Below, one piece after another: positions 36,853 through 61,568 of a stretch of DNA of 64,000 nucleotides; position 1 is the stretch's first letter; each line of letters begins with the position of its first letter. The stretch is from Streptomyces sp. P3 (GTDB lineage: Bacteria > Actinomycetota > Actinomycetes > Streptomycetales > Streptomycetaceae): assembly GCF_003032475.1 (NCBI RefSeq), contig NZ_CP028369.1, positions 3,844,001 through 3,908,000 on the forward strand, in the 5' to 3' direction. The notes below the pieces were generated by a model, which made no database searches, had not been told where the DNA came from, and saw only the letters and a program-made list of their open reading frames with translations. The position numbers and the translations under genes are program-made.

Positions 36853-37349
36853 TTACCGTCCGGGCCCGGTCGTGGCCACCGTGGGGCGGACAGCGGCCAA
36901 CGGGGCGGGCTGGTCCGGTGGTTGGCCCAGGGCGCGCGGTGCGTGCGCGGAGCGGGCGACAGCGGCCTGGGCCAGGCTGAGTGACGGTGCGCGGTCCGTG
37001 GTCATGGCGGCTTCGCGGGCCTGGATCACGTGGCTGATCGCCTGCAGGCTATGCGGCTCTCGGCCTGCGCGACGCGCAGGTCCACCGCAGAGCTGGTGAT
37101 CCGCTCCAGGTCGTGGAAGGCCGGCACATGACCGGGCCGGGTTATGGCGTGCAGGCGGTCTTGGTGGACGGCGACCGCGTTGTTCGAGACGACGAGGCTC
37201 GAACGGGTATGCATCGCCGAGCGCAGGAGCGGATCCTCGACGGGGCGGCGGACCGCGAGGGTTTCCAGCGCCTCGATGGGGCGGCCAGGGCGGCCCCAGG
37301 CTTTCTCGATCATCGCGTCGGCCTGGTCGAGTGCGGTGGCGTCGGGCAT
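36853..37349 (-). pseudogene. Frameshifted helical protein with AxARS-type tail
   Basis: The first frame starts at 37349 (MPDATALDQADAMIEKAWGR) and gives good coding sequence to about 37060, where it hits TGA after a change of frame. The next frame carries the natural continuation (HSLQAISHVIQAREAAM) and a tail with LAQAAVARSAHAPRALGQ to TAA at 36853. One base lost or gained near 37058 explains this. The intact product would be about 165 residues. It may be a sequencing error rather than a true pseudogene. Confidence 0.55.
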
Positions 37350-37420
37350 GGCGGAACTCCCGGTATTCGGAGGTGCTGCTTCGGTCAGAGGCGACGTCTC
37401 GGAGGGGCTGGGGGCGGGAG

Positions 37421-38365
37421 TCAGCGGCTGTGCCGTGGGGCCGACGGGCTGGCCGGCGGCCTGGCCGCCGCTGCGTGTGCGAGGTTGCCCGACAGATTCT
37501 GTGCCGCAGTCGCGGTGCGACTGCGAGCGGCCACCACGCGGAGGTCGGCTGCTGTCTGCGGGGCGCGTGCGGCGCGGTGGACGGCCTGGGCGACAGCGGT
37601 GCGGCGCACGTCGAGTGGGGTCGGAGCACGAGAGATCTGAGGATCGGCGGCTTGGCCGATCGGGGCCAGCGTGACCAGGTGCTCCACCTTGCGGTTGATC
37701 TGGTGCCGCTCACGAATCGCCGGGGCTGAGTCCGACATGGCGGCTGCGGTCGCCGCGATCAGGTGGGTCGGGGTGCGGGCTGTGAAGACCGCTTCCGCGC
37801 GCGTGCCCCAACCCGGAGGACCGGCCCACAGCCTGACGGTTTCGTCGTCCCAGTCAGAGAGGCGGTTGTCGATCAGAACGCCTGCTTGTCCGTCGGGGGC
37901 GATGATCTCGACAGTGCCGCGCTCGGCCGCCTCGTCGCGGGTCCAGCCGGCATTGGTCAGCGGCCGGACGGCACCAGCCCAGTACAACGACGGGTTCGTC
38001 AAGAAGCGCGCGTTGCCTTCGCTGGCCTCGGATTCGGCGTAGTCGCGGGCCAGAGCGCTGGTGAGCCCGGCGACGATCTCGGCCGGGGTGACGTGGTTGA
38101 AGGTTGCCGTCCAGCGGGGTGCGGAGACGGCGTCCTCGGCGGCGGTGATCTTCCACAGTTCGAAGTCGTCGCCGAACCAGCCGATCCGTATTCGCTGGTC
38201 GGGCGAGGTGACGAGGAGCTGGCAGGGGCCCTCGTCGAGATAGTGGTGCGGCCAGTGACTGACAGGGGCGAAGCCAGCGTCCCCGGTCCCGTTGGAGCCG
38301 GCCAGGTACATGGGGCTGACCAGTACCTCTTGATAGGGATGCTGGTCGTAGGGCTGGGTGTTCAC
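37421..38365 (-). CDS. DUF317 domain protein (two domains)
   Basis: A 314-residue protein from GTG 38365 with GGAG ten bases upstream. The first DUF317 copy includes RIRIGWFGDDFELWKI and APRWTATFNHVTPAEIVAGL; the second runs from about 120 to 215 (SLYWAGAVRPL, VLIDNRLSDWDDETVRLW). The last 95 residues are helical and end with a tail containing AARSRTATAAQNL and a Pro/Ala-rich SPSAPRHSR end. That tail resembles those of many unrelated proteins in this block. Confidence 0.8.
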   Translation of the reverse strand: MNTQPYDQHPYQEVLVSPMYLAGSNGTGDAGFAPVSHWPHHYLDEGPCQLLVTSPDQRIRIGWFGDDFELWKITAAEDAVSAPRWTATFNHVTPAEIVAGLTSALARDYAESEASEGNARFLTNPSLYWAGAVRPLTNAGWTRDEAAERGTVEIIAPDGQAGVLIDNRLSDWDDETVRLWAGPPGWGTRAEAVFTARTPTHLIAATAAAMSDSAPAIRERHQINRKVEHLVTLAPIGQAADPQISRAPTPLDVRRTAVAQAVHRAARAPQTAADLRVVAARSRTATAAQNLSGNLAHAAAARPPASPSAPRHSR

Positions 38366-38485
38366 GGTCGAGACTCCGAGGTGTAGGAGGGGAACGCGCC
38401 CGCGTGCGCAGAGGAACGAACGGCTGGACCGCACGGGGGCGCCGTGGCAACGGCGTGAAGCGGTTGACTCTCAGCGCCACCCGGG

Positions 38486-39320
38486 TCACCGGCCTCGGGA
38501 GGAGGCCGACTGAGCGGCCACGGCCACCGGCACCCGCGGTTGTGGCTGCGGGGCATGGCTGAACAGGGAGCTGGGCGCGGCGGTGCTCCGCCGCAGGGCC
38601 GCTGAGGTACGGATGCCGTCCGATCCCGGCGGGATGCCCGTGAGGGTGCGTGGCCGCCGCGACCCGGACAGGGGCGGGACGTGGTGCGGCGACGGGGTTG
38701 CTCCAGTGCTCGACGGCTGCGTAGACCGGGCCCAGCGCCCGTCCGGCGGCGGTCAGGACGTATGGATCGCCGTGGCGCGGTCCGGTGCGGGTGACCAGGC
38801 CGTCGAGCTGAAGCCGGATCAGGCGCTGCCGGGTGAAGCTGTTGTCCAGTCCTGCCTGTTCGGAGATGTGGACGAACCGCATGGGCCCGCCCGCGTCGAG
38901 GACCTGGATCACAGCGGTCGAGTGGCGAAGGTGCAGTCGGCGCACGGCGTCCTCGACGCGCTCGGCACCGGCCACCTTGCCCAGCGATAGGTGCGCGTGG
39001 GACCAGTCGGACAGCGCACGGTGTACCGGGGACAGGGCGTCGCCGAACCCACTGAGCTGGTACGGGGCACCGTGGCGATCACCGGCTCGGATCACCAGCC
39101 CGTCATCGTGCATCTGGGCCAGCCGCTTGCCGACGAACTGCTCGCTGACGAAGGGGAGACGGGCGGCGACATCACGCACACGCATGGGGCCGTCCTGCTG
39201 GGCCAGGGTCTGTGACGACCAGGTGGTCCACTTCGGCGCTATCAGGGACAGTGCCTCCTCGACGCGCTGGGCGTCGACGAAGCCGATCTGGGAGGTTGCG
39301 GGTTGTGCAGGGGCGGACAT
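38486..39320 (-). pseudogene. Double winged-helix (HxlR/MarR-like) protein, frameshifted
   Basis: From ATG 39320 the frame encodes two tandem winged-helix units: first residues 15-110 (MRVRDVAARLPFVSEQFVGK, LVIRAGDRHGAPYQLSGFG) and then a second repeat (MRFVHISEQAGLDNSFTRQR, LVTRTGPRHGDPYVLTAAG). After HPHGHPAGI the frame loses coding character and runs open into the next gene, while the neighbouring frame gives a typical element tail (AALRRSTAAPSS) ending at TGA 38486. A one-base indel near 38620 is likely. Whether the DNA-binding part is functional depends on that indel being real. Confidence 0.55.
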
Positions 39321-39368
39321 GGCGCTAACTCCGTTATGGCGAAGGGGAATCGGGCGGCGGGGTGCGGA

Positions 39369-39914: not shown

Positions 39915-39935
39915 GGGGGTCTTCCTCCTGGGGAT

Positions 39936-40095
39936 TTAAGCGGGAGCGGGAGCGGGAGGGTTTGGCGGTCGGGCCGGTGAGGGAACGCGGGTCGCGGGGT
40001 AGACGGTCGTCGCTCAGCGCCCAGGGGTCTTCGACGCCGAACTCCTCGGCGATCAGGTGCGCGCCGGGCCGCTTCGCCCTGTCGTGGGGGTTCAT
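39936..40095 (-). pseudogene. Short gene with lost frame
   Basis: An ATG at 40095 overlaps the stop of the upstream gene (ATGA) and opens a clear coding stretch RPGAHLIAEEFGVEDPWALS, but no stop occurs in that frame before the next gene is entirely overrun. A TAA at 39936 is out of frame by one base, so an indel is likely. It may encode a 50-60 residue protein in intact form. Confidence 0.35.
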
Positions 40096-40760
40096 TCGGC
40101 AGCGTTCATCCGGGCGAGCAGGGAGCGCACCAGGGTGGGCAGGCTGTCGGGGCCCTCGCCGATTCGGACGTGATCGGTTGCTTCGCCGAGGACGTACGCG
40201 GCGTCTTCGAGGAGGCCGCTGGAGATCTCCATGCAGGCGTCGGTGATCCGGGAAGCGGCGAGCAGGGACCGAGAGAGCACCTCGACGTAGTCGCCGGGGC
40301 TGAGGTCGGCAGCCTCGGCGGCTGTGCGGATGGCGGCCAACTCCAGCGCGCTGAACGCGAAGTCGAACTCGTCGTCCTGGTCCGTCGGCGAGGGCGCGAC
40401 GAAGGCCGGGTCCGGCAGCTCGGCCGGGATGCCGACGCGCGTGCAGATCTGGTCCACGGAGGCGGTCAGCTCGGCGAGGGACTCGGTGAGCCAGCCGAGC
40501 GCGGAAGCGTAGGACGCCAGGGTGAACAGACCGGCGGGGGTGGAAGGCAGCGGCTCCTCGGCGACGAACTCTTCGAGCCGGTCGTTCAGTTCGCGGACCA
40601 CCCGGGGACCGGCGGACAGTGCGCCGAGGACGGGATGCAGGTAGGAGCGGCCGGCGGAGGTGGGGTACTCGGTCGTGAGGACCTCCGAGACGCTGCGCGC
40701 GGCGTCGGTGAGCAGCCCGGCCAGTTCGGTGCGGTCGAGGGACGCACGGTCGGCGGTCAT
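40092..40760 (-). CDS. Hypothetical protein in RelE-like gene pair
   Basis: A 222-residue protein from ATG 40760, which overlaps the stop of the RelE-like gene (ATGA). It is helical: LASYASALGWLTESLAELTA and LSPGDYVEVLSRSLLAASR. An acidic segment QDDEFDFAFSALELAAIRTA is central. It may be the antitoxin or partner of the RelE-like protein, by position only. A 413-residue open frame covering it is mostly shadow of the neighbouring gene. Confidence 0.6.
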   Translation of the reverse strand: MTADRASLDRTELAGLLTDAARSVSEVLTTEYPTSAGRSYLHPVLGALSAGPRVVRELNDRLEEFVAEEPLPSTPAGLFTLASYASALGWLTESLAELTASVDQICTRVGIPAELPDPAFVAPSPTDQDDEFDFAFSALELAAIRTAAEAADLSPGDYVEVLSRSLLAASRITDACMEISSGLLEDAAYVLGEATDHVRIGEGPDSLPTLVRSLLARMNAAE

Positions 40761-41245
40761 CGGATGGAGGCCTTTCGGGAGGTGGCCGGGGCGGAGGGGC
40801 TGGCTGCCGCCGGTGCGGTGGCTGGGAGGGATGCGGTCGGGTCGATCGCGTGGGGGGATCGGGACCGGGCAGCCTGGACTCGTGCCTCGGCCGCCGCGTC
40901 GGTGCCCTCGTGCCGGTTGAGGCCGGTGCGGTTGGTGCGGAGCTGGGCCGTGCGGTAGACCGCGTAGTCCTCCCGGGCACCGGCCGCGACGAGGTAGATC
41001 TCGCGCTTGTGGGTCGAGGTGGGCGGGGCCGGGCGGAACTGGATGACCATCCGGTAGGAGACGGCCGGGTCGACGTAGACCTTGTGGAAGCCCGCGAGGC
41101 GGCCGGTCAGCGGCAGGCAGTCGTCGCTGCCGTGGACCAGGTTCTGCAGTTCCAGCAGCGCCAGGTCGCGGATTTCGTCGGGGAGTTGGCGCAGGTCCGC
41201 GATGGCGTCCGTGTGGGCGGCGAAGGCGAAGCGGGCGCGGCTCAC
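40757..41245 (-). CDS. RelE/ParE-like fold protein
   Basis: A 162-residue protein from GTG 41245. Residues 1-105 fit the RelE/ParE toxin fold: a helical DAIADLRQLPDEIRDLALLE, then strands GFHKVYVDPAVSYRMVIQFR and KREIYLVAAGAREDYAVYRT. The last 45 residues are a non-globular tail (VQAARSRSPHAID, then Ala/Pro/Ser-rich), which toxins of this family do not normally have. Typical catalytic Lys/Arg/Tyr at the C-terminus are only partly visible, so activity is unclear. Confidence 0.6.
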   Translation of the reverse strand: MSRARFAFAAHTDAIADLRQLPDEIRDLALLELQNLVHGSDDCLPLTGRLAGFHKVYVDPAVSYRMVIQFRPAPPTSTHKREIYLVAAGAREDYAVYRTAQLRTNRTGLNRHEGTDAAAEARVQAARSRSPHAIDPTASLPATAPAAASPSAPATSRKASIR

Positions 41246-42009
41246 ATCGGCCTCCGGGGGGTCGGGCGCTGACCCGTTCCTGCCGACGGCGTGTTGCCCG
41301 TGTCGCGGCCGGCTTTCGGGATCGCGGAGGCACCCGATGACCGGGTGAGGGCGGCGCGGGTCAGCCGGGCGGCGGCCTCACCGCGGTAGTCCGGAGGCTG
41401 CGGCAGCGGACTGCCGCGGTGCTCCAGCCAGTGGCGGGCGGCGGCGTCGTCGGTGAAGGCGCCCTCGCGCATCGTGTACGTGTGGGCGTCGGGGTTCCCC
41501 TCTTCGAGGAAGACACGAATCGGTGCCTGAGCGGCGCTGGAGTCACGGGTCAACGTCCAGGTCTCGTACGGGGCGAAGTCCGAGGTCCAACTGTCGAGGA
41601 CCTTGTAACGAGAGCCTGACTCCCGGATCTGCCGCTCGACCCAGAGGGTGAGATCGTCGGCGGGCTTCAGGGAGTCCCCCTTGGCCTGGGCGATCCGCTC
41701 GGGCGGGCAGCCATGCTCGATCAGCCAGTTCTGGGCGAACGCCAGGCTGGCGTGGTTCGCGGTCTCGAAGGTGAACGTGCGCTCGCGCAGGTCCCGCGTG
41801 ATCTTGATGGCGACGAGTGCCGGATCACCGGGGACGCCCCAGGTCATCGACCTGTCGTGGGCGACGAGGTAGCTGTGCGTCCCCTCCGGGGTGGTGTGGT
41901 GCTCGGCCAGCACGGTCAGGTCTCCGGCCCAGATGCTGCTCTCGGCGAGTTCGGAGGCGGCGTCGGCAGGCTCGAAGTCGGCGAGGCGGAAGTCGGGTTC
42001 GGCGATCAC
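41242..42009 (-). CDS. Hypothetical conserved element protein
   Basis: A 255-residue protein from GTG 42009 overlapping the DUF4913 gene stop. Beta-rich region around HSYLVAHDRSMTWGVPGDPA and RERTFTFETANHASLAFAQN suggests an anti-parallel sheet domain; a second unit includes YETWTLTRDSSAAQAPIRVF. The tail reads ARLTRAALTRSSGASAIPKA and ends in TPRRPM. Function unknown; it overlaps the RelE-like gene as GTGA and is co-translated with both neighbours. Confidence 0.65.
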   Translation of the reverse strand: MIAEPDFRLADFEPADAASELAESSIWAGDLTVLAEHHTTPEGTHSYLVAHDRSMTWGVPGDPALVAIKITRDLRERTFTFETANHASLAFAQNWLIEHGCPPERIAQAKGDSLKPADDLTLWVERQIRESGSRYKVLDSWTSDFAPYETWTLTRDSSAAQAPIRVFLEEGNPDAHTYTMREGAFTDDAAARHWLEHRGSPLPQPPDYRGEAAARLTRAALTRSSGASAIPKAGRDTGNTPSAGTGQRPTPRRPM

Positions 42010-42755: not shown

Positions 42756-43953
42756 CTACGGCGCGGTGCAGCGGGGGCAGCCCGGAAAGGGAGGTGCCAG
42801 CAACCGCACGGCTCGGGCGGCCTGTTGGGGGACCACGCCGTTGCCGAGCGCGGTGAGCTGAGCCGGTCGGCCGAGTCCCGGAGTGGCGGTCACCCAGCCG
42901 GGAGCCAGGCCCTGCATCCACTCCACGAAGTCGGCGCGCAGGCGTCCGGCGGCGTCGGTGGGCGGCGGCGCGGGGCGGGTGAGGTTCTCCCATCGGGCGA
43001 TGGCGGAGGCGTACGCTCCCCATCGCCCGTCGGTACCTCCGCTTCCGGGGCCGCCTCCGCCCACAGCGGCAGGACCACCGCCGACAGGGGCGGACGCCAG
43101 CCCTTGCCCGGACGGCGGCCAGGGGTGCCGGTGTCGCTCGCCCTCGGGGTGGGCAGCAGCGACGCTGCCGCACTCGGCAGCGTCATGTCCCCGTTGCCGT
43201 GCCGCTGGTTCGGCGAGCCCTTGATCCCGTCCGACGCCTTCGGCGTGGGCAGCAGCCACTCCACCTCGTCGGCCAGGTTCGGGCCGTGGCCGCCGCTTTT
43301 CCTCTTCGACGGGTGCTGGGAGCCGCCGTTCTTGCCGATGTTGCTCGTCGGGGTCTTGAGCAGGGTGCTCGGCGGGCCAGGCGGCGAGGAAGGTGCGCTC
43401 GCGTCGATGGGGGGCTCCGACGTCGGAGGCACGAAGCACGAGCCACCTCGCGTCGTACCGGATATCGGCCAGGGATCCGAGTACGGCACCAAGTGCCCGC
43501 ACAGGAGGCTGGGTTGGGTCGTCTCCCAGACACCACGGGCAGAATTCCACGTCGCCAGGGGAACCGGCGGGCGAGGTGAGGAGACCTCGGACATTCTCGA
43601 TCACCACCAAGCAGGGGCGGAGGGCTTCGACCGCACGGGCGACGTGCAGCCACAGCCCCGAGCGGGTGTGGGGGTTGAGTCCGGCCCGGCGGCCGGCGAC
43701 GGAGACGTCTTTGACAGGGGAAACCGGCCGTCAGGACGCACACCCGAGGCACATCGGCCCAGTCGACGGCGGTGATGTCCCCCAGATTGGGCACGCCGGG
43801 CCAGTGCCGGGCCAGGATGCGCGCGGCGTCGGGGTTGATCTCGGCGTGCCAGGACACGGTGCCGCCGAGCGCGGTCTGGACCCCGAGGTCCAGACCGCCG
43901 TAACCCGAGCAGAGCGAGCCGATCAACGGCGTTCGCGCGGTGGTGGTTTCCAT
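42756..43953 (-). pseudogene. C5-cytosine DNA methyltransferase (Dcm-like), frameshifted
   Basis: All main C5-methyltransferase motifs are present but in different frames: SLCSGYGGLDLGV (motif I), TAGFPCQ (motif IV catalytic Cys), VVIENVRG (motif VI), GAPHRRERTF (motif VIII) and LGNGVVPQQA (motif X). After GFPCQ an extra A in a run of A (near 43711) shifts frame; two further shifts near 43370 and 43020 are needed to read through SNIGKNGGSQHPSKRKSGGH and back to RWGAYASAIARWE. The element's own modification enzyme therefore looks dead, unless the indels are sequencing errors. Confidence 0.75.
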
Positions 43954-43954
43954 G

Positions 43955-44539
43955 TCACCGGCCACGTGCGATTCGGTCTGAGGGGGCCGCCACCGCCGTG
44001 GTGACGTTGGGCGGCGGAGGCCCCGGAGAACGCGCGGTGGTCGCGGATCGGCTACGGGCGGCCTGGAGCCGCGCGGACGGGGGAGAGATCGTTGCCGACG
44101 CGGCGTGCAGGGAGTTGGCCCCGTCGTGCAGTGCCGCGCCGGCGGTGGCGAGTGCTTCCTCCATCACCCGTATTGCTGCCTCCCGGGCATCCCTGGCGTC
44201 GGGCTGGTCGCGCAGACTCTCGGGCTGGTTCAGGAAGGCGACCTGGTGGGCCACCGCTCCCAGGGCGGAAGCCGCTTCGCTCGCGGGCTCGACGGCGGCG
44301 GCGAAGTTGGTGATCACGCGAGCGGTGTGGGGCGCTTGGTCCTGGCCGGCGGCACGGAAGAGGACCTCGTCGCCCAGATCGGTGACCAGCTTTCCGAGCT
44401 CGGAGATCTGGCGGGCGACGGCGACGACATCGGGTGAGCGGTGGGGGTCTCCCGGCACCGGCAGCTTGCCGCGCTGGGCGTCGAAGGCGGAGGCCATGGC
44501 GCGCAGGGCCAGGGCGTCGGAGAGTGGGGTGTTGTCCAC
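43955..44539 (-). CDS. Hypothetical helical protein with AARSR tail
   Basis: About 194 residues from GTG 44539; the frame opens at a TTG four codons earlier. It is helical (MASAFDAQRGKLPVPGDPHR, VARQISELGKLVTDLGDEVL), with a coiled-coil-like middle, and ends with LQAARSRSATTARSPGPPPP before DRIARGR. The methyltransferase ATG follows its stop by one base. No known family recognised. Confidence 0.6.
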   Translation of the reverse strand: MDNTPLSDALALRAMASAFDAQRGKLPVPGDPHRSPDVVAVARQISELGKLVTDLGDEVLFRAAGQDQAPHTARVITNFAAAVEPASEAASALGAVAHQVAFLNQPESLRDQPDARDAREAAIRVMEEALATAGAALHDGANSLHAASATISPPSARLQAARSRSATTARSPGPPPPNVTTAVAAPSDRIARGR

Positions 44540-44594: not shown

Positions 44595-45764
44595 TCAGCC
44601 GTGGGTGCGTGAGGGCGGTCGTGCGGCTGATGGCGTGGAGGCAGAGCCTGGGCATTCCGAGGGCCGTGCGGCCGGTCGCGCCGTGCTGCGGGCGAGGGCG
44701 GCGTGGACCTGCGCCGTCGGGGGCCCCTCGGCCGACGGCGCAGGGGGCGGCGCCGGAGCGAGGTGGCCGTTCGCGGTCTGCCAGCGAGCGCGCACGTTGT
44801 CGAGCGGTCCGAGCGCGTGCAGGGCGTGGCTGATGAGCCGTCCGGGGGCCAGGGTCTCGTTCTCGGCCAGGGCGCGGATGGCGCGGGCGGAGGCGGCGGC
44901 CGTACGAGCGACGGAGAAGCGCATGATCTGCTCGCCGAGCCACGCGGCGCTGCCGGGGCCGACGCCGTCGCAGATGGCGGTGACCTGTTCGGTGGTCAGC
45001 GTGCCGTCGGCGAGCAGACCGCGCCGCTGGGCTTCCCACAGCACGGTGATCCGGTCGATGGGTTCGCCGCGGTGGTGCAGCGCTCCCAGGCAGCGGTAGA
45101 GCTGGCCGTGGGCGGGATCGGCGAAGTCGCCGGGTCGCAGCCAGCCGACGACTTCGTCCATCGCCTTCGGCTGCTCGACTAGGACCGCCAGCAGGAACTG
45201 CTCGTCCTCGGCGACCTGGTCCGCTCGTGCTGGCGGCGGCGCGACGGGAGCTGTGGTGGGCGGTGCCGCCGGGGCGACCGGGCGCGGTTCGGACCCCCAG
45301 CGGCGTGCGAGGTCTTCGAGCACCCCGGTCAGGACGTCCGCGTGGTGCAGCGCTCCTTCCACCTCACCCTGGAGGGCGGCGGCGCGGGCTGCCTGGTGGA
45401 GGCGGATCGCGTGCGCAGTCACGCTGCGGTGGATCGCTCCCTCCAGCACCATCCGGCCGTACACCGGGGCGTGCTCGGGTCGCGGGCAGGCTGAGATCAG
45501 GATGTGGGGATACACGGCGGTCAGCCCTCGGACATGGTTGCTGGCCTCGGCGACGGCGTCCATCACCCAGGACAGCGGCACGCGTTCTCCGGTCGCTACG
45601 GCGGGATGGCTCTCGGTCCGGAGCTTGCGCAAGGCGGCGAACAGCGCCTGGTGGATGGGCCGGTAGAAGTGATCGGGCGCGAGCCAGTCCAGGTGCGTGA
45701 GCTGGCCGGGGTCGAGCAGCACCGAGCCGAGCACCGCCTGCTCGGCACTCAGCAGCGGGTTCAT
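44595..45764 (-). CDS. Protein with two DnaB N-terminal-like domains, no helicase domain
   Basis: A 389-residue protein from ATG 45764. Residues 1-130 match the DnaB helicase N-terminal domain (SAEQAVLGSVLLDPGQLTHL, FYRPIHQALFAALRKL); a second copy lies at 183-310 (DEQFLLAVLVEQPKAMDEVV, LYRCLGALHHRGEPIDRITV). The RecA-like motor with Walker A is absent. It ends in a tail (VHAALARSTARPAARPS). It could mimic the DnaB hexamerisation/primase-interaction face and thus recruit or block host DnaG or DnaB during transfer or replication. Confidence 0.75.
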   Translation of the reverse strand: MNPLLSAEQAVLGSVLLDPGQLTHLDWLAPDHFYRPIHQALFAALRKLRTESHPAVATGERVPLSWVMDAVAEASNHVRGLTAVYPHILISACPRPEHAPVYGRMVLEGAIHRSVTAHAIRLHQAARAAALQGEVEGALHHADVLTGVLEDLARRWGSEPRPVAPAAPPTTAPVAPPPARADQVAEDEQFLLAVLVEQPKAMDEVVGWLRPGDFADPAHGQLYRCLGALHHRGEPIDRITVLWEAQRRGLLADGTLTTEQVTAICDGVGPGSAAWLGEQIMRFSVARTAAASARAIRALAENETLAPGRLISHALHALGPLDNVRARWQTANGHLAPAPPPAPSAEGPPTAQVHAALARSTARPAARPSECPGSASTPSAARPPSRTHG

Positions 45765-46264: not shown

Positions 46265-47281
46265 TCAGCGGCGACGGCTGCGGTCGAGAGCCGTCTGCGC
46301 GGACGCCGGGAGGGACGACGTGGCGGGCGGTGGAGTGTGCGGTGTGGGGCGGTGGGGTGTCGTGGTGCGTGCGGTGGCGGCTCGGACTCGTGGGGAGGTG
46401 TCGTCGGTGTGCTGGAGGGCGTTGGCGGTGTCGGTGAAGCGGCGCCAGGCGTAGTCGGAGCGGTCCGCGGTCCAGGTCGGCGCCCGGGCGACGAGGGCTT
46501 CGGCGAGGGCGGCGACGTCGTTCTCGGGTGCGGTGCCTCGGGCGAGGAGGGGACCGGCGGGGGACCACAGGTCGATGCGCCATTCGTCGCCGAGCCGGAC
46601 GGCGGTGACGAAGCCGTCGTCGGGTGCCGGCTGGTAGGTCCACATGTGGGCGCGGACTGTCCAGCCGGGTCCGGCGAAGGCGGGTGGGGCGGGCTCGGGC
46701 AGCAGTTCGGGTGTGCCGACCTCGAACAGGTCGAGCAGCGGTCCGTCGTTGAGAGCCGCGTTCATGAGCCGCAGCGCGTCGTCCGTGGGGACGTCCTGGC
46801 GTCCCTTGAGCGCGGCGAGGACGGTGCGCAGGGTGCTGAGGTGTTCCCGGGCGTCGCCGGGGTCGAGCCGGTCCTCGGCGGGCCCGTCCTGGCGTAGCCA
46901 GTGCCGCACCGACGCCGCCTGGGACCGCAGCGATTCGATGTCCCCGGCGGAGAGCCGTTCCGGCAGCTGTTCCACGCGGTGGACCAACTGCCAGTAGGGC
47001 TTGAGGTGTTCGCTGACGACGTGGCGGGCGATGCGATCGATCTGGGGGCGGAAGCCGGCCACGGCCCCGGCGCGGACCTGGTCGTCGTGGTGGCGTAGAT
47101 CGGTGAGCAGGCGCATGTAGGCGTCGTGGATGTCGATCCGGTCGCGGACGACGGACTCGTAGGCCCGGTTGAGGAGTTCCAGATCCGACAGTTCCTGCGC
47201 TCCGGACTCGGGGTGGTGGGCTGCTTCGCCCCGGAGGGCGGCGACGCGTTCGGCGGCGGGGACGTCCCAGACCCCGCTCAT
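46265..47281 (-). CDS. Hypothetical element protein
   Basis: A 338-residue protein from ATG 47281, overlapping the coupling protein stop (ATGA). The first half is helical (ELLNRAYESVVRDRIDIHDA, HLKPYWQLVHRVEQLPERLS), the second has a beta unit (WTVRAHMWTYQPAPDDGFVT, DEWRIDLWSPAGPLLARGTA) resembling half of a DUF317 domain. Tail: VRAATARTTTPHRPTPH then Pro-rich, ending DRSRRR. Overlap with the VirD4-like gene implies tight coupling to the secretion machinery. Confidence 0.65.
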   Translation of the reverse strand: MSGVWDVPAAERVAALRGEAAHHPESGAQELSDLELLNRAYESVVRDRIDIHDAYMRLLTDLRHHDDQVRAGAVAGFRPQIDRIARHVVSEHLKPYWQLVHRVEQLPERLSAGDIESLRSQAASVRHWLRQDGPAEDRLDPGDAREHLSTLRTVLAALKGRQDVPTDDALRLMNAALNDGPLLDLFEVGTPELLPEPAPPAFAGPGWTVRAHMWTYQPAPDDGFVTAVRLGDEWRIDLWSPAGPLLARGTAPENDVAALAEALVARAPTWTADRSDYAWRRFTDTANALQHTDDTSPRVRAATARTTTPHRPTPHTPPPATSSLPASAQTALDRSRRR

Positions 47282-51395: not shown

Positions 51396-51405
51396 ATGGC
51401 TGTGG

Positions 51406-53225: not shown

Positions 53226-53226
53226 G

Positions 53227-55002
53227 TCACGCCGTTCCGCATCGACAATCCGGGTGCCCCCACTGGCGCTTGCAGGCGGCGCACGGCTTGTAGTACAGGT
53301 GTTCCAGCACCTGGGCTTCTGTCGCTCCGTCGCGCACGTGCCGGGTGAAGGCCCTTGAATTGTGCCGATACAGCACGTCGCCCGGAACGGTTGCCTGGTC
53401 CTTGTCCCTCGCCACATTCGCACGGACGACCAGTCCCGCCTGTGGCACGACTGTGGACTCCTCAGGTGCTTTTGGGGCTGCGGCTGCGTCTCCGGGCATA
53501 GCTGAAGCAGGGAGGCCAAGACCGAACTCCAGGTCGTAGTACGACGCTGTGACTCGATCGTGCTTCTGGCTTGATGACGCCTCGACCGACAACACCAAGT
53601 CGTCGTCGAGAACGACCTTCAGCTCGAGGCGCTCGTGCAGTGGCGGGGCGGTCTCGTCGACGGCGAGTGTGATCATTCCCAGCGACGTTCGCCGCTCGCT
53701 CGCCTGCGGGTGTGATGACAACGCGGTCGGAGTGGCAATCGGAAATTTCGCCTTCCCGTCCGTCGGATCCGCGCAGTACAGGTGGAGGGTTTCGTGCTTG
53801 ATCTCTCCACCGAGAGGCATTTCGGTGCCCGCAGCGAGGAGCGGCATCAACGACCCACGGGCGAGCTCGAGTTCGATGGGCTTTGCCAGTCGGAGTCTCT
53901 GCCTGTCATGCGCGATCCACGCAGCTCCTTGTGAGATCAACGTGGCACTGTTCGTCGGCACCTCAACTCGGTCCGGGCCAAACAACTCGTGCAGTCGGCT
54001 CCGAATCGCGGGCATGGCCGCCATGCCACCGACCACGACGACCAGCGAGACCTGGCCGGGCGCCATCGACAGGCTGCCGAGCAGCGACTCGATCTCATCG
54101 ATACCTGCCGTGACGAGCGGCCGTGTGATCTCCTCCAGCTCCTGACGCGTGAGCCGGTACTGCAACGTGGCACCTGATTGGAAGTAACTTGGCCGGTAGA
54201 ACGTCACGTTGGCGCGGTCAGCCGAGAGCTCGATCTTGTTGCGTTCCGCGTCTTGGAGGAGCCGGAGTTCAGCCTCAGGGATCGCGAGGTCGTCGTCAGT
54301 GGCACTTCCGCGAGCCCGAGCGCGCTTCACGACCTCGTCGCGAATTACCTTGTCGAACTCGTCGCCGCCGACCTGGGCCGAGCCACCATTACGAAGTTGT
54401 CGAACCTGGTCTTCGTCGACTCGACAGAGAGTCAGGTCCAGCGTTCCGCCGCCCCAGTCGACAACCAGGACGTTTCGTCGTGCAAGCCGCCGGGCCATCT
54501 CTTCTGGATCGTCTGCTCCCCGGATGAATCCGTACAGGGCGGCGAGCGGCTCGTGGACGAACTGCGCTACACCCATCCCGGCCCCGGCGAACGCCTCTCG
54601 CAGCGCCGCGCGTCGGTGCCCATTCATGGTCACGGGGATCGTGACCACAGCATTGTCGAGGCCGCCGAGCACCTTCCGTTGCGGACTGCGCAGGGACTCC
54701 GACCGGACGTGCCGCACGACGTCCGCAACGATGTCCACCGGGCTCCGGTCGACGCCTCCGACGGCGATTACCTCCTCGCCGAGGAGGAACTTCGGCGATT
54801 TCACCGTGTTGCCGTGCACCCCAATGCCCGCGGCACCCAACGCGTCCTTGGCCTCGCGACCGACGACTACCTGCTCGCCCTCGTACCGGACGATCGAGGG
54901 ATGTGGCCGGCCAGTCTCGACGTCCATCACGTCGATCACGCGGTCACCAACTACCACCGAAACAAGGCTGTTGGTCGTTCCGAAGTCGAACCCGACGATC
55001 AC
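53227..55002 (-). CDS. Hsp70 (DnaK-like) family protein
   Basis: A 591-residue protein from GTG 55002, overlapping the upstream stop. The actin-like ATPase is complete: phosphate-1 GFDFGTTNS (residues 4-12), HEPLAALYGF near 150, phosphate-2 VVDWGGGTLDL near 182, and adenosine motif VVVVGGMAAMP near 324. A beta-rich C-terminal region follows (EMPLGGEIKHETLHLY) in place of a typical DnaK substrate domain with EEVD-type lid. The last 20 residues carry CAACK and CRC, a probable zinc site. Not the housekeeping dnaK: no grpE or dnaJ nearby, and divergent C-terminus. Confidence 0.87.
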   Translation of the reverse strand: MIVGFDFGTTNSLVSVVVGDRVIDVMDVETGRPHPSIVRYEGEQVVVGREAKDALGAAGIGVHGNTVKSPKFLLGEEVIAVGGVDRSPVDIVADVVRHVRSESLRSPQRKVLGGLDNAVVTIPVTMNGHRRAALREAFAGAGMGVAQFVHEPLAALYGFIRGADDPEEMARRLARRNVLVVDWGGGTLDLTLCRVDEDQVRQLRNGGSAQVGGDEFDKVIRDEVVKRARARGSATDDDLAIPEAELRLLQDAERNKIELSADRANVTFYRPSYFQSGATLQYRLTRQELEEITRPLVTAGIDEIESLLGSLSMAPGQVSLVVVVGGMAAMPAIRSRLHELFGPDRVEVPTNSATLISQGAAWIAHDRQRLRLAKPIELELARGSLMPLLAAGTEMPLGGEIKHETLHLYCADPTDGKAKFPIATPTALSSHPQASERRTSLGMITLAVDETAPPLHERLELKVVLDDDLVLSVEASSSQKHDRVTASYYDLEFGLGLPASAMPGDAAAAPKAPEESTVVPQAGLVVRANVARDKDQATVPGDVLYRHNSRAFTRHVRDGATEAQVLEHLYYKPCAACKRQWGHPDCRCGTA

Positions 55003-56222
55003 GCGAAGCCTCCAGACGCGTCCTTCAGCTGCTTGACCTCACGCGTGAGGGCAAGCAGAGAACGGTCGAGGAACTCCTCCGCGACGTCGGGCGCACCGTT
55101 CCGGAGTGCGTGCAGACCATCGGTAAGCAGATCGATCTCACCCCCGAGACGCCGGATGATGCGCGTTCGCAGCGTTTCGTAGTCGTCCGCCATATGGCTC
55201 TTGTCGACCACTCTGTTATCGCGCTCAGCCACGAGCTCCTTCTGCAGTCGCACCACGTCGGCAGAGAACGCGTCGGCGCGAGCCAGCGCAGATTGCTCAC
55301 GCTCCTCGACGGTCGAAAGCTCATTGCGGAGCCGAGTCTCGCGATTCCGAGCAGCCGCAGCCTCACTCTCGAGATGTGTGACCTGCCGTTCCAAGCGGGC
55401 GATCCGGGCGAGGTAGTTCGCGCCGACGATCCCGAGCACCTTGTGATCGCTGCTTGCCCCGACCTGGCTGGCGGCTCGCTCCAGCCCTGCTGCCTCCGGG
55501 GCCTCGTACCTCCAGAGAGAGTCGTACGACGCATCGATGAACTGATCCAGGGTCCAATCACGTTGGAGCGCGCGGAGGAGTCCGTAGCACGCGATCGCAT
55601 GCCTGACGAGGCGCTCACTGTCTGCGGCTTTGAATTGCTTCGGGGCCGCTCCAAGTTCGTCGGCGACCCGCTGAGCCGCGGCACGCACGTGTTCGATCGA
55701 GAGCTGCGGATCCTTGCGGGGATCGACCAGCTGGTCCACCCTGCCCCCGAACACCGGGCTGTGGCCCAGTGCGACTACCGCGAGGTCAACGAGCCGGTTC
55801 AACGCCGGTGCGAGGCCACCGTCCTCGGCGCGCTTGAGCGGGACCCCTTGGCGCGCCGCGAACTGAAGCAGCTTGAACGGGGCCGACAACGTTGGGTCTG
55901 TCGGCGCGAGAGACTCAACCAGCGCGCTCTGTGACGCGATGCCCTCATCGGTAATCGCCAGCTTCTTGAGGTCCTCCTTCGAGAACTCAAGCAGTCGAGC
56001 GTTCGACTCGTAGGCGAACGTCAGCAACTCCTCGATCGAGGTAATGATCGGCTTCGGTTTCGTCTTGGACTTGGCCCGCTGTGTCCCCTTCTCCGCAGCG
56101 GGTGCCGCTGACGCATTGTCAGTAGGCGCGGCCGAGGCAGTGCCATCGCCGGTAGCGGTAGCCGATGCGGGGTCGCTCGGCCCCGACTCCGCGCCGGGCT
56201 CTGGAATGGTCTCGTTGCTCAA
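54999..56222 (-). CDS. Coiled-coil protein of zinc-finger/Hsp70 operon
   Basis: A 407-residue protein. An Ala/Ser/Pro-rich disordered N-terminus (1-55) leads to a helical domain (SIEELLTFAYESNARLLEFS, HVRAAAQRVADELGAAP) and a long coiled coil at about 265-345 (RLERQVTHLESEAAAARNRE). It may act as the nucleotide exchange or adaptor partner of the adjacent Hsp70, since the gene order and overlap (GTGA) imply a complex. No known family recognised. Confidence 0.72.
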   Translation of the reverse strand: MSNETIPEPGAESGPSDPASATATGDGTASAAPTDNASAAPAAEKGTQRAKSKTKPKPIITSIEELLTFAYESNARLLEFSKEDLKKLAITDEGIASQSALVESLAPTDPTLSAPFKLLQFAARQGVPLKRAEDGGLAPALNRLVDLAVVALGHSPVFGGRVDQLVDPRKDPQLSIEHVRAAAQRVADELGAAPKQFKAADSERLVRHAIACYGLLRALQRDWTLDQFIDASYDSLWRYEAPEAAGLERAASQVGASSDHKVLGIVGANYLARIARLERQVTHLESEAAAARNRETRLRNELSTVEEREQSALARADAFSADVVRLQKELVAERDNRVVDKSHMADDYETLRTRIIRRLGGEIDLLTDGLHALRNGAPDVAEEFLDRSLLALTREVKQLKDASGGFA

Positions 56223-57322
56223 CGTCCTACCTCTTGCAATCGGGTCCGAAATCCTGCGTACCAGGCGCCGGTCTCCTTGGAGTGCCTGAGCGCCTCGCCA
56301 TGTCGTGATGCACCATCGATGTCTCCCACAGCGAGCAGCGCCTCAGCCGCGATGAGTCGGACCTTGAATTGGTCCTGGGGCCGGAGCTCGCCCAGCGAGG
56401 GCAGTAGTTGGGTGACCATGGATGACTGTGTCCCGTCCAAAGCCGTCGCACCGAGGTCCAGGAGGTCCTCGGTAACGGAGTCGCTCAAGGCCCGATCGAA
56501 GCTTCCGTGCGACCGGTCGGCCAGGCTTGTCGTGACGAATGCGCCGCCTGCGAGGAGGGATCGGAACCGCGCCGCGACATCGGAGACGCGGTGGCTGTTG
56601 GTCTTGCGTACCGCAAGTTCGAACTGGTTGTAGTGCAACGCGACCAACCCGCAGATCGCCTCCGCTGCGGGGCGGTCGAAGGTCGACAGCAGAGAGACCG
56701 CACTGTTGTACCGCTGCTCGTAGATCGGCGCGCCCGACGCATCTACCCGGCCGGGGTCCTCGACCGCTTCACGCGCGAGTACGCCGTACAGGTATGCCGC
56801 CACACCTTCGCGGTAACGGCGGGCCGTCACCCCGCCGCCGGCACGCATGATGAAGGTGTCGATTGCGTTGCGACTCAACTCGCGACTGGAGATGAGCTTC
56901 TCCAAGGCCTGGTCGACGAGGCAGAGGTCGTCTTCTTCTGCAAGGCAGAAATCGAACTCAAACGTCCGCTCCAGCGGGCCATTGGAAACAGCCACCGTCT
57001 GGACGCCAACCTTCACCGACGCAAGGAAGCCGGCGGCCTCAGACGGTGAGGTTTCGCGGCCGTTGATGGCGATGGATTCGACATCCGAGGTCACCCAATC
57101 GGCGGAGACACTGGGGCTCGTGACCATCAAGCGCGTGCGCCCGCACTCTCGTCCCCTGAAGAGGAGGGTCGGCCGCTTAGTCGCATGACCGTCGAAGCGG
57201 TGCGCTCGGAGGGCGCGCTCGGACGAGAAGATGAGCCCACACTCAGTGCAGGGAAACTCAGGGGGCTTTGGCGGGGCTGGTAGCCCGACCCATTCAATTC
57301 CGGTCGGCTCATGGAACTCCAT
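56219..57322 (-). CDS. C2H2 zinc-finger-containing protein, first gene of Hsp70 operon
   Basis: A 367-residue protein from ATG 57322; a GTG at 57355 would add 11 residues. Residues 24-45 form a textbook classical C2H2 finger: C-x2-C-x12-H-x4-H in FPCTECGLIFSSERALRAHR, then DGH. Such fingers are rare in bacteria. The rest is a mixed fold followed by a helical-repeat domain (YREGVAAYLYGVLAREAVED, RLIAAEALLAVGDIDGASRH) that resembles TPR. It probably senses a protein or nucleic acid for the Hsp70 system. It overlaps the coiled-coil gene (ATGA). Confidence 0.75.
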   Translation of the reverse strand: MEFHEPTGIEWVGLPAPPKPPEFPCTECGLIFSSERALRAHRFDGHATKRPTLLFRGRECGRTRLMVTSPSVSADWVTSDVESIAINGRETSPSEAAGFLASVKVGVQTVAVSNGPLERTFEFDFCLAEEDDLCLVDQALEKLISSRELSRNAIDTFIMRAGGGVTARRYREGVAAYLYGVLAREAVEDPGRVDASGAPIYEQRYNSAVSLLSTFDRPAAEAICGLVALHYNQFELAVRKTNSHRVSDVAARFRSLLAGGAFVTTSLADRSHGSFDRALSDSVTEDLLDLGATALDGTQSSMVTQLLPSLGELRPQDQFKVRLIAAEALLAVGDIDGASRHGEALRHSKETGAWYAGFRTRLQEVGR

Positions 57323-57518
57323 GTAGCCGGTGTGCCAGAACCCCACGAGCCCCACCCGTCGCTTCCTGATCCGCGTCCCCTACGCCTTCGGAAGGCTAGT
57401 CGGACTGCGGGTACTTTGCGAGGTCGCCGGTTTAGTGAGATCGACCCGTGATGGGCTGTCATGTCACCTTCGTGTGGGCCGAGCTGCCGATGCATGTCTG
57501 AGAGACGCCATCCGCTTC

Positions 57519-58157: not shown

Positions 58158-58931
58158 TCAGCGGTTACGGGAGAACGCGATGCGCGGGTCCACCGGGCGG
58201 GCCGCCGGGCCGGAGGCGGCGGGCACGGCCACCGGCGCCTTACCCGGCAGGCCGGCGCGGGCGGGACTGGCGGCGAGCGCGGCGGCGCTCATGGGGAACT
58301 TGTGAGTGGTGAAGCCCTGATCGCGCTGGGGGCGCGCTGCCGTCGTAGGCGCGGGTGAGCGGCGCGCGGCTACGTCCTGGGCGAGGAAGGGCTGCACGGC
58401 CACCTGGAGGTTGGCACGATGCATCGCCAGCGTGGCAGTGGCGACCTTGTCGAGCGCCTCGCTGCGGTGCGTGGTGATGGGCAGCGTGTAGATGTCCAGG
58501 CTCGGTTTGTGTCGCCAGCCGTGCTCTTCCAGGATGAGCGGGCCGTCGAGAGCGGAGGAACCGTCGGCGGTGGCGGCGACCACGCCGAGCTGCGGGTGTT
58601 CGGCGAACGCGACGTCCGGCTCGACGCGCGGGGGCCGGTCGGGGGCGGGCGCTGGTCCGAAGGTCGGCGAGGGGTCGAACGCGGTGTCCACGTCGACCCG
58701 GTAGCCGGCCTTGCGCAGTAGCGCGACGGCCCGGGTGGTGCGGCCCTGCCCGTCACGCTGCTGGTTGGCCAGTGCGTACAGGTTGGGGTGGTCGGGGACG
58801 GGGTGGAAGTCGAATCCCTTCAACATCCAGGTGCTTGCCGCCAGTTGCTTGGGGTTGGCGGCGACGATGCCGAGGTCGGGGTGGCGGCCGACCGCGATGT
58901 CGGGAAGCGGGTCGTGCTCGGGGGTGGGCAT
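58158..58931 (-). CDS. Hypothetical protein with internal repeat and Pro/Ala tail
   Basis: A 257-residue protein from ATG 58931. Two related units occur: HPDLGIVAANPKQLAAST with LKGFDFHPVPDHPNLYALAN (residues 17-60), and HPQLGVVAATADGSSALDGP with EEHGWRHKPSLDIYTLPITT (residues 112-155). The tail (ALAASPARAGLPGK, VPAASGPAARPV, ending AFSRNR) resembles that of other proteins here. Function unknown; repeated aromatic/His strand suggests a small binding domain used twice. Confidence 0.65.
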   Translation of the reverse strand: MPTPEHDPLPDIAVGRHPDLGIVAANPKQLAASTWMLKGFDFHPVPDHPNLYALANQQRDGQGRTTRAVALLRKAGYRVDVDTAFDPSPTFGPAPAPDRPPRVEPDVAFAEHPQLGVVAATADGSSALDGPLILEEHGWRHKPSLDIYTLPITTHRSEALDKVATATLAMHRANLQVAVQPFLAQDVAARRSPAPTTAARPQRDQGFTTHKFPMSAAALAASPARAGLPGKAPVAVPAASGPAARPVDPRIAFSRNR

Positions 58932-59028: not shown

Positions 59029-60174
59029 TCAGCGACCGGGCGCGGACGAGGGCCGGGCGGGTGGCAGGGAGGCAGGTGCGGCTGAAGCGGACGGCGGCGC
59101 GACCGGGGTTGTGGGCCGTGCGGTCGGCGAGACCGCGAGAGCGGCGGCGACCCGGGACGCCGCCGGTTCCTCCGGGGCGACTTGGTCCACCCGGGTCTGG
59201 AGCCTGCCGGGGTGGTCGGTGTGCCGGTCGGCCAGGACGCCGCGCATGGACCGAATGTCCAAGGCGTAGGAGTCGAGCTTCTGGGCGATGTAACGCAGCC
59301 GGTTCGCGTAGTGGGGATCGGCGGGTTCGTCCAGGCCTCCCCACCAGTCGGCCGTCGTGTTGAGGGACTCCACGACGCGCTGGAGAACGCCGTCACCGGG
59401 AGCGGTCAGCTCGCTCAGCGCGGCGACGACTTCGCCCGTGTGCGCCGCCGACCGGATGGACTGGGGCAGGTGGCCGAGCCGGTCGCCGAGGCTGAGCCCC
59501 TGATCACCAGGGGGCGGCAGGCTGGGGTCGAGCAGGCCGGGATCGCACGAGACGTCGAAGCCCTCGGCCTGAAGCATGTCGACGGCCCGGGTCACCATCT
59601 GCCGCTGCTCGACCGGGTCGGTCATGGCGGAGGGCAGCCGGTGGAAACGCTCGCGGAACAGCACGACGGGGACGAAGCCCGCACGGTGGAGCACCGCGTC
59701 GGCGCCGCTCTCGTGGGCAGGTCGCCGCGGTTCCGGCCGGGGCGGCAGGCCGAGCTGGTCCAGGCGAGTGTCGATGGCGGCGAACAGGCGGGGGATGCTG
59801 CCGCCGTGTCGGGCGTGGGGATCGTGGGGCTCCGAGTCGTAGATCACTTCGTGGAGCGTGGAATCGTCGGGATGACCGCGGGTCACCAACCAGCTCTCCG
59901 GATACCCGGGTGGGTGGTCGGTGGGCGGTTCCTGGGGCGGAGAGATGATCAGGGCGCTGCCGTCGGGAAGTTCGGCGTGGACGATGTGGTCGCTGAGGCC
60001 GTACTCGACGGTGCAGGACAGTCCGCGCTGCCGAAGCGGCGTGGTCAGGTGGCCGTACGGGTGGTCATGCTCCGACGTGCCAGCGGCGGCTTCCTGGATG
60101 AAGGGTTCGCTGGTGCGCGCCGTGATGCGTGTGCCCTCCCGCTGGAGGGTGACCAGGGTCTGATCGGGGCGCAT
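59029..60174 (-). CDS. Hypothetical element protein with tail
   Basis: A 381-residue protein from ATG 60174 with GGAGAAG upstream. It has a mixed N-terminal domain (LVTLQREGTRITARTSEPFI, VEYGLSDHIVHAELPDGSAL) and a helical second half (QMVTRAVDMLQAEGFDVSCD, YANRLRYIAQKLDSYALDIR). The second half resembles the region of the relaxase homologue that includes AAEMLRAARYSVDLDP, so a shared domain is possible. Tail: RVAAALAVSPTARPTTPVAP. The conserved element at 60269 lies 95 bp upstream. Confidence 0.65.
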   Translation of the reverse strand: MRPDQTLVTLQREGTRITARTSEPFIQEAAAGTSEHDHPYGHLTTPLRQRGLSCTVEYGLSDHIVHAELPDGSALIISPPQEPPTDHPPGYPESWLVTRGHPDDSTLHEVIYDSEPHDPHARHGGSIPRLFAAIDTRLDQLGLPPRPEPRRPAHESGADAVLHRAGFVPVVLFRERFHRLPSAMTDPVEQRQMVTRAVDMLQAEGFDVSCDPGLLDPSLPPPGDQGLSLGDRLGHLPQSIRSAAHTGEVVAALSELTAPGDGVLQRVVESLNTTADWWGGLDEPADPHYANRLRYIAQKLDSYALDIRSMRGVLADRHTDHPGRLQTRVDQVAPEEPAASRVAAALAVSPTARPTTPVAPPSASAAPASLPPARPSSAPGR

Positions 60175-60268
60175 GTGGGCTTCTCCGTAGCCGGCCGTCC
60201 CCAGGGGGCGACGGCGGTGGGAAGCCGCAGCCGGGCGGGGGCCGGTAGGGGGTAGTGGCGTTCGTTGA

Positions 60269-60314
60269 GGATCCGGCGATCGTGCGGTTTGGCCTCGCCG
60301 GAAGTCGGTGCTAG
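60269..60314 (-). promoter_or_regulatory. Conserved element, copy 3
   Basis: On the minus strand it reads CTAGCACC, spacer, TTCCGGCGAGGCCAAACCGC. It matches copies 1 and 2 in the CCGGC and GCCAAAxCGC core but is the most divergent, and its right part overlaps the end of the gene at 60320 by only the space between them. Confidence 0.45.
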
Positions 60315-60319
60315 AGGCG

Positions 60320-61018
60320 TCAGCGCGAGCGCCGCACGGCAGGGGGCTCTGACGCTGCCGAGGCGGACGGCGAAGCGGCAGAGGCATCGTGCCGACCGGA
60401 GGTGGATCGGGCCAGGGCCGCCTGGACACGCCCCGTGTGCGCGGACTGGTCGACCGCGATCCGGTCGGTCAGGTGATCGGCAGCCCTGGCCAACGCCGCT
60501 TCGCTGTAGCTGAGTTCGTCGGCGTAGTGCCAGCCTTCGGAGTTGCGGATCTCGCGGGCTCGTTCCTCGTAGAGCTCCCGCGACCCGGGCATGGACCCCT
60601 CCATGAGCGCGATGACCTGATCCCACTCGCGGCGGATCTCGCCCGCTCGCTCCAGTACGGAGTCGATCCCGCGCAGGCGCAGCAGGTCGGCGCTGATCGG
60701 GCCGTCAAGGTAGTCGGCCGGTTGCGCGGCGGCCCGAACACCGGCGAGGACTTCGGGGCCGTGGGCCAGGAAGGTCTCGACGTGCTCCCAGGCGGTAGCG
60801 TCCCGGGCCACCTTGCCGTCGGCGTAGCCGGTCTCATCGACGGGCCACCCGTCCTCGTCGCAGTACGAGTCGGAGACCGCGTCCCACTGGTCCGAGGCCT
60901 GCCTGATGCCATCAGCAGCGGAGGCCAGGGCCTGGACACGCGCCCGCCATGCTGCCCGTTCGTTGGCATCTTGCGGCTGGCGATCAGGGGTGGCGGAGGA
61001 GTCGGGAGAGGTGGGCAT
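60320..61018 (-). CDS. Hypothetical helical protein with AALARS tail
   Basis: A 232-residue protein from ATG 61018. It is alpha-helical and acidic (AAWRARVQALASAADGIRQA, WEHVETFLAHGPEVLAGVRA, LLRLRGIDSVLERAGEIRRE), without recognisable catalytic residues. The last 40 residues are a disordered tail with VQAALARSTSGRHDASAA. Probably a transfer accessory or translocated protein by context. Confidence 0.65.
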   Translation of the reverse strand: MPTSPDSSATPDRQPQDANERAAWRARVQALASAADGIRQASDQWDAVSDSYCDEDGWPVDETGYADGKVARDATAWEHVETFLAHGPEVLAGVRAAAQPADYLDGPISADLLRLRGIDSVLERAGEIRREWDQVIALMEGSMPGSRELYEERAREIRNSEGWHYADELSYSEAALARAADHLTDRIAVDQSAHTGRVQAALARSTSGRHDASAASPSASAASEPPAVRRSR

Positions 61019-61046
61019 GGTCGTTACTCGTTTCTGTACGGGTGCC

Positions 61047-61568
61047 TCACCGCGAACGCGGCAGCGAGCGCGTGACGGATGGTGGGACAGGAGATGGAGC
61101 GTCGTTACGCTGGCCGGGGGAAGTTCCCCGGGCCGACGCCGCTGGCGAGAAGCGGGCTGCTGCTGCCGCTTGGTGCGCCCGGGAGCGGATCTCGTGGTCG
61201 AGGTTCTCCGCGACGAGATGCAGCTCCTCGCCAATGTCGGTCAACCGGGAGGCGATGGTGTCCAACTCGGACGCGCTGCGTCGGGCACCGTGGGTGCGAC
61301 ATCACTCGGAGGCGGTTTCGAGCATCTGGTGCAGGCGGGCCACCGCGCCGAAGTCCTCCGTGACGGCCTCGCGGAATAGGTCGGTGAACTCCTCGGTCCG
61401 GGCTGCGGCGAGGCGGTCGTTCCCGTCAGTTGCCGGTGCGCCGTTGTCCGGACTCGCGGCCGGGCCGGTCGTCGGGTGGCGCTGGAGCGGGGCGGCGTCC
61501 TCGACCGCACCGAACCGGAGACCGGGGGCGAGCCCGGACCGGGAACCCGAGACCCCACGGGGGCTCAC
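61047..61568 (-). pseudogene. Helical protein gene with in-frame stop
   Basis: One frame runs from GTG 61568 (overlapping the VirB4-like stop as GTGA) to 61302, stops at TGA after LHQMLETASE, and continues in the same frame with ASELDTIASRLTDIGEELHL and VAENLDHEIRSRAHQAAAAA to 61047, ending in the tail typical of this block. Read through, it would be a 173-residue helical protein. Alternatively the 88-residue first part is complete and the second part a separate small gene starting at TTG 61265. Confidence 0.45.

Follow-up and report, generated by a model that had tools for sequence, protein, structure and literature searches.

MOB relaxases are the canonical substrates of type IV secretion systems (T4SS), and Streptomyces is best known for TraB double-stranded DNA transfer. 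We analyzed a putative conjugative element of Streptomyces sp. P3 in a stretch of 64,000 nt, hereafter the window (positions 3,844,001–3,908,000 of NZ_CP028369.1; genome size 9.85 Mb). Different accessory proteins of this element share a C-terminal tail: a 12-residue core, then a linker rich in proline, alanine, serine, and threonine (P/A/S/T), mostly with a terminal Arg. This sharing is far above chance. Judging from sequence, the tail is probably a C-terminal tag of a new type for T4SS translocation, which a VirD4-type coupling protein would read.

T4SS signals are mostly too variable for substrates to be predicted from sequence (PMC10025392; this and the papers cited below are considered here in part). 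Signals of the Agrobacterium VirB/VirD4 system (VirF, VirE2, VirE3, and the C-terminus of the relaxase MobA) resemble the tail in being C-terminal, about 20–50 residues long, equipped with an Arg motif, and present on both effectors and a relaxase (PMC10025392); however, the sections considered mention no Ala-rich core at a fixed distance of 40 residues upstream, whereas in the Streptomyces tail the core is the most conserved part. In the F-plasmid (pED208) conjutome, a conjugation T4SS likewise moves many proteins to recipients, some of them by C-terminal signals (PMC11288057; PMC8406263), but these signals are diverse, with no common motif reported in the sections considered (PMC11288057), while one tag marks the cargo set in Streptomyces, a member of the Actinobacteria. 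XVIPCD, a C-terminal module common to the effectors of Xanthomonas-type killing T4SS and read by VirD4 (PMC10025392), comprises about 120 residues with a Gln-rich tail, in contrast to about 40 residues built as helix, P/A/S/T stretch, and Arg in Streptomyces; with a conserved part of 12 residues and a linker Gln frequency of 0.033, the tail does not fit XVIPCD. The BID domain with its basic tail is also common to effectors (of Bartonella) and some conjugative relaxases (PMC10025392), but the Streptomyces core is a short linear motif, and no BID match was found in Pfam at E 0.001 among 42 representative cargo proteins. Nor does the tail correspond to the Glu-rich C-terminus of the Dot/Icm E-block (linker Glu 0.010). 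Polyvalent proteins of conjugative elements and phages are proposed to enter with DNA (PMC5512222); these are multi-domain proteins, unlike the many small proteins with a common tail found here. As in general C-terminal T4SS signals, the end is hydrophilic and net positive (linker Asp plus Glu 2.5%), the tail is located at the C-termini of proteins encoded with a T4SS, and it is shared with relaxases, though the element's own relaxase lacks the core. Among the open-access entries and passages listed, none describes such a tail in Streptomyces elements, subscription papers not being covered.

The window encodes 13 tails, all on the minus strand and given here from core to stop codon. They terminate the DUF317 protein 37421–38365 (tail 37421–37540, core RVVAARSRTATA), the RelE-fold protein 40757–41245 (40757–40882, RVQAARSRSPHA), the DnaB-N-domain protein 44595–45764 (44595–44711, QVHAALARSTAR), and the relaxase-like protein 50019–51545 with replaced motif histidines (50019–50150, ARSAALATSPAA), as well as proteins 41242–42009 (41242–41364, LTRAALTRSSGA), 43955–44539 (43955–44071, RLQAARSRSATT), 46265–47281 (46265–46390, RVRAATARTTTP), 49177–49851 (49177–49299, RRRAARASSPHA), 58158–58931 (58158–58292, MSAAALAASPAR), 59029–60174 (59029–59154, RVAAALAVSPTA), and 60320–61018 (60320–60430, RVQAALARSTSG). 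The remaining tails, at 36853–36975 (LAQAAVARSAHA) and 38486–38611 (RTSAALRRSTAA), are out of frame with the bodies 37349–37041 and 39320–38640 (HxlR-type), respectively; in relatives, tail and body share one frame, and the breaks (36853–37349 and 38486–39320) reflect either decay or an assembly error. The core reads roughly R-V-x-A-A-L/R-A-R-S-x-x-A and begins 36–44 residues upstream of the stop. Genes were called with a simple codon-usage caller, so gene starts are approximate, while the C-termini are unaffected by the choice of start. All 13 cores quoted in the original prediction were found where it placed them. Its claim of a common tail on a dozen proteins stands for the 11 tails attached in frame, and not for 36853 and 38486; as to the basic end (often RSR, RNR, or RRR) that it described, 11 of the 13 tails have Arg as the last residue, the other two ending in THG and RPM.

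The original prediction proposed a comparison with non-element C-termini and with homologous elements, and both speak for the tail. In a strict test, based on the composition of the last 25 residues, 9 of 29 element genes were tailed vs 1 of 311 background genes (from twenty 20 kb segments of this genome); in relatives, the homologous loci had 6–20 tailed genes out of 24–41, as did two further sites of the own genome. In leave-one-out profiles, 10 of 13 tails outscored all 50 of their own shuffles, and 9 outscored every scored background C-terminus of the same genome (287–296 of the 311 were scored); tails 36853, 41242, and 49177 failed against both shuffles and background, and 38486 against the background. 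When the genome was scanned in all six frames with a profile built on the 13 tails, and 150 of 657 first-look candidates were scored, 12 matches at E < 2e-6 were obtained, all within the element (37421 was not among them), the next best match having E = 0.009; the sensitivity of this search is circular because the profile was made from the same tails. Whole-tail profiles were rejected as a general detector: the window-only profile A1, run on 61 genomes including the own one with at most 110 candidates scored per genome, gave 11 own matches, one in genome G023, one in G002 (possibly by chance), and none in G028, although G028 carries tails, and the 20-tail profile A3 matched only the own genome, G023, and G028, from which its training tails came.

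That different proteins end alike was borne out on a wider scale, since 194 tailed proteins (7–23 per locus) fall into 47 groups by body similarity. Thirteen window genes, the relaxase included, were entered into this set by hand; the others were chosen by a looser test, which 10 of the 311 background genes pass as well. Arg or Lys occupies position −1 in 81% and position −3 in 58% of the 194 proteins vs 17% and 10% of the background, the former frequencies being inflated by a selection that used Arg/Lys in the last four residues. The AlphaFold2 model of the RelE-fold member 40757–41245 adopts a RelE fold, with M. tuberculosis RelE1 as the top PDB match (template modeling score by target 0.77); its helix 113–129 includes the first 8 of the 12 core residues, with a predicted local distance difference test (pLDDT) score of 55–75 in this block, and the last 26 residues (137–162) have pLDDT < 50.

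Loci for comparison were located via the coupling protein, with 60 relatives and the own genome covered, together with 5 plasmid records fetched of 352 matching ones. Genome G028, near the window's coupling protein, had 5 tailed genes of 18 in the strict test; the plasmid loci had four (L107), nine (L108), one (L111), and none (L109 and L110). Around six more distant type IV coupling protein (T4CP) loci, 0–2 genes were tailed, and ten loci whose coupling proteins are more distant again had 0–1 each. A tree of 29 coupling proteins, from which five of the most distant were left out, united the array-bearing loci in one clade with support of 1.00, divided into clade I (1.00) and clade II (0.95). 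When 15 array-bearing loci were pooled, 176 of the 525 genes not belonging to the T4SS machinery (a total that also counts genes flanking the elements) were tailed vs 1 of 82 machinery genes (Fisher p = 2e-12).

A matrix of the 13 window cores, with a cut-off of at least 11 bits at positions −46 to −34, matched 22 of the 189 proteins from five other clade I loci and 2 of the 446 from clade II loci; none was matched among 528 proteins from array-free loci and 312 from the background, and one among 40 around a core-bearing relaxase of genome G015. Only 4 matches were located elsewhere in a protein. The core is thus mainly a clade I feature, while clade II keeps the spacer and the Arg end; one clade II RelE-type gene (own genome, 7.27 Mb) retains the core. 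Beside the 7.24 Mb locus of the own genome, a tailed array continues on the other strand (7.26–7.30 Mb; L167 and L168) and includes a RelE-type gene with the core RTHAARSRSPQL at −44.

Selection on the core was analyzed in 30 window–orthologue pairs from four clade I loci (G010 excluded), of which 26 had a recognizable core (at least 5 of 12 identities) and four were dropped. Identity was 0.85–1.0 at core positions 3, 4, 5, 7, and 8, 0.69 at position 6, and about 0.3–0.6 at most flank positions. The ratio of non-synonymous to synonymous differences (pN/pS) was 0.23 at core positions 3–8 vs 0.79 upstream and 0.80 downstream, a contrast favored by the core-based choice of pairs and the ungapped flank comparison. 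A gapped alignment of 27 non-redundant RelE-fold relatives, drawn from 120 listed of 424, is free of both biases, and core conservation also holds there: the columns ARV-AARSRS were 96–100% conserved except for one, the flanks being mostly at 0.2–0.8. Among paralogous cores, identical residues used the same codon in 151 of 356 cases vs 142.8 expected from codon usage; this lack of excess indicates that the peptide has been kept without recent copying of DNA.

The core was also found on some MOB relaxases. In genome G015, RTQAARSRSTAT lies 40 residues before the C-terminus of an intact-looking relaxase. No other gene of the 40 kb stretch around it is tailed, and the single coupling-protein match of this genome is far away. 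Among 120 listed of the 2909 relatives of this relaxase found in 7997 scored candidates (itself included; 70 below 92% identity), 115 had their best matrix match over the whole protein of about 565 residues at −38 to −41, and 88 reached 10 bits. A sample blind to the tail was formed by 20 PF03432 matches in 101 genomes of the genus (17 genomes have one; two pairs exceed 80% identity). The best match fell at −35 to −42 in 8 of these 20 relaxases, compared with a mean of 1.0 and a maximum of 4 after shuffling the last 70 residues (300 trials). Six of the eight scored 2–7 bits and the others 9.7 and 11.4, so it is position, not score, that carries the evidence. Eighteen of the 20 end in Arg, and 17 pass the loose tail test, including L210, whose reading frame may be wrong. 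The proteins L111:3750–4895 and L061:10502–11638, encoded in distant loci close to T4SS genes, contain a core-like AAARSxSPSVGP about 45 residues before the stop; the former, near a distant relaxase, was rejected as a further case, its stretch at −45 scoring 6.5 bits and the protein not being similar to the window relaxase.

The cargo includes a RelE-fold protein, DUF317, a DnaB N-terminal domain, an HxlR-type regulator (frameshifted here), and a relaxase-domain protein, and that of relatives also a MoxR-type AAA protein; few of the 42 representative cargo proteins obtained Pfam or NCBIfam labels. We infer that this profile is as expected of an establishment or conflict set. The relaxase-like protein 50019–51545 shares 43% identity with the element's relaxase across 168 residues and has NQARQVHVV in place of HADDHIHIV, i.e., two of three motif histidines are replaced, in agreement with its earlier description as a dead relaxase. 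Within families, the tail went with the arrays: of 11 DUF317 genes that the own genome has within or next to tailed arrays, 10 were tailed (three by the loose test only, one of them the window's own), the exception being the short 36021 gene in the window. Of the four other DUF317 genes of this genome, two of which are located some 29 kb past the 7.28 Mb array, three had no tail, and one passed the loose test only, with a domain-like end. Among HxlR genes (E up to 1e-8), the member of the 7.28 Mb array passed the loose test, and the other 16 did not. The tailed RelE-fold gene overlaps by its final four bases the start of a gene for an untailed 222-residue protein (40092–40760), and relatives keep the two side by side; the untailed protein, without a Pfam match, is a candidate partner or immunity protein.

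The suggestion that the tail is a T4SS substrate signal is supported by its concentration on accessory genes and near absence from machinery, by the conservation of the core, by the agreement of tail type with the coupling-protein tree, and by the same core at the same distance on some intact-looking MOB relaxases. Being present on many unrelated proteins and some relaxases, the tail probably serves as an address by which proteins are directed to the next cell. The signal would have three parts, namely the short, partly helical x-V-x-A-A-x-A-R-S core some 40 residues before the C-terminus, the flexible P/A/S/T spacer, and the terminal Arg, and the element's VirD4-type coupling protein would bind and read them. 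The T4SS would then feed the tagged proteins into the recipient together with relaxase-bound DNA, and the RelE-fold, DUF317, and DnaB-N proteins, the HxlR regulator in relatives, the relaxase-like protein with replaced histidines, and others would function there. We lean slightly towards a broader arrangement, a "passport" system, in which one coupling-protein lineage and a co-diversifying C-terminal tag may serve to inject roughly 7–23 accessory proteins, among them the RelE-fold protein and the relaxase-like protein, whenever a new host is entered; relaxases of mobilizable elements, bearing this tag as well, would ride the channel too.

Several observations weigh against an export tag. The core is lost or truncated in some orthologues (G023 for 44595 and 49177, L107 and G028 for 37421, and several in G010). 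Clade II cargo has the P/A/S/T-Arg tail mostly without the core (0 of 144 at 10 bits, in addition to the positional count above), so the core and spacer may have different jobs. Twelve of the 20 sampled relaxases, including the window's own, have no core at the position, and the L107 orthologue of the latter does not pass the strict tail test. Some T4SS loci have no cargo arrays at all. Since the loci were located via VirD4, finding it next to the arrays follows from the sampling and is no argument for VirD4 in particular as the receptor; for the same reason, we dropped the argument that T4SS genes are the sole partners common to all arrays. As to coevolution of the coupling protein's substrate-binding domain, nine of 29 clade-diagnostic columns fall at 302–332, but the columns are not clearly concentrated in this domain, the excess over the whole domain not being significant by a hand estimate with approximate domain limits. 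A PDB sequence search with the coupling protein gave no match at E up to 0.001.

A role in the donor alone, with the tail docking accessory proteins to the relaxosome, to DNA, or to each other and no export taking place, would suit the basic end, the presence on some relaxases, and the DNA-metabolism-like nature of several cargo proteins (DnaB-N, HxlR, and relaxase-like). We consider such docking unlikely: the linker is not strongly basic (Arg 0.09, lower than 0.17 for the DNA translated in six frames), what is conserved is an Ala-rich core, and MobC has no tail in the window, L107, and L108. Slightly less probable still is the binding of some other common partner unrelated to secretion, such as a chaperone or a stability or localization factor. 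A short conserved motif in disorder suits any docking motif, and relatives encode a MoxR-type AAA protein and a weak-VWA protein amid their cargo, but the G015 relaxase carries the core with no other tailed gene around it. The MoxR-VWA-like pair is unlikely to be the common receptor because three loci that keep tails (the window, L107, and L108) did not show it in their gene lists; these lists were read, and no dedicated search for the pair was made.

High GC favors P/A/R-rich translations, which might make the tail a neutral extension in GC-rich DNA, or it could be a copied 3′ gene-end repeat. Both are highly improbable and were discarded: the linker has Pro 0.232, Ala 0.227, and Gly 0.037 vs 0.116, 0.126, and 0.116, respectively, in the six-frame translation, the core has a low pN/pS without excess codon sharing, and the machinery of the same elements is nearly always untailed. 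If the translocation tag is accepted, a fixed-position motif on some relaxases and dozens of unrelated accessory proteins would make the cargo of actinobacterial conjugation readable from genomes, assign a function class to many "hypothetical" genes, and suggest that Streptomyces also exports protein sets via a VirD4-type channel.

The candidate tail receptor, a VirD4/TraG-type coupling protein identified by Pfam over the cut-off, is encoded at 47278–49062 on the minus strand and has no tail itself. A VirB4-like T4SS ATPase (61565–63136, minus strand), also untailed, was recognized by sub-cut-off Pfam AAA matches and synteny, the syntenic gene of L107 being annotated as an ATP-binding protein. 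An untailed SCO6880-family T4SS protein (63651–64000, minus strand), assigned by synteny with an annotated plasmid, runs past the window end, beyond which further T4SS genes extend up to a C40 peptidase (names from the syntenic plasmid). The MOB (PF03432, over the cut-off) relaxase of the element, with an intact HxH motif and a P/A/R-rich C-terminus without the core, is located at 28828–30597 on the plus strand, preceded by a MobC/NikA-like relaxosome protein (28370–28828, plus strand). A Streptomyces angustmyceticus plasmid of similar gene order has the relaxase and MobC inside the locus; therefore, both were counted as parts of the element. With its T4CP, VirB4-like ATPase (by synteny and weak AAA matches), and relaxase, the element probably belongs to the actinobacterial T4SS-type conjugative elements.

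Beside the relaxase, a GajA-like OLD-type ATPase/TOPRIM protein adjoins a GajB-like UvrD helicase, forming a Gabija-like defense pair (31393–35084). A low-GC island amid the cargo genes (52000–57355) encodes Hsp70-like, coiled-coil-like, and weak C2H2-like finger proteins, none of them tailed; in G023, the MoxR-VWA-like pair is found in the part of the cargo region neighboring the position of this island. A C5 cytosine methyltransferase at 42756–43965 is apparently split in two frames, with PF00145 parts in 43183–43965 and 42756–43610, and represents the third apparent frameshift of the element.

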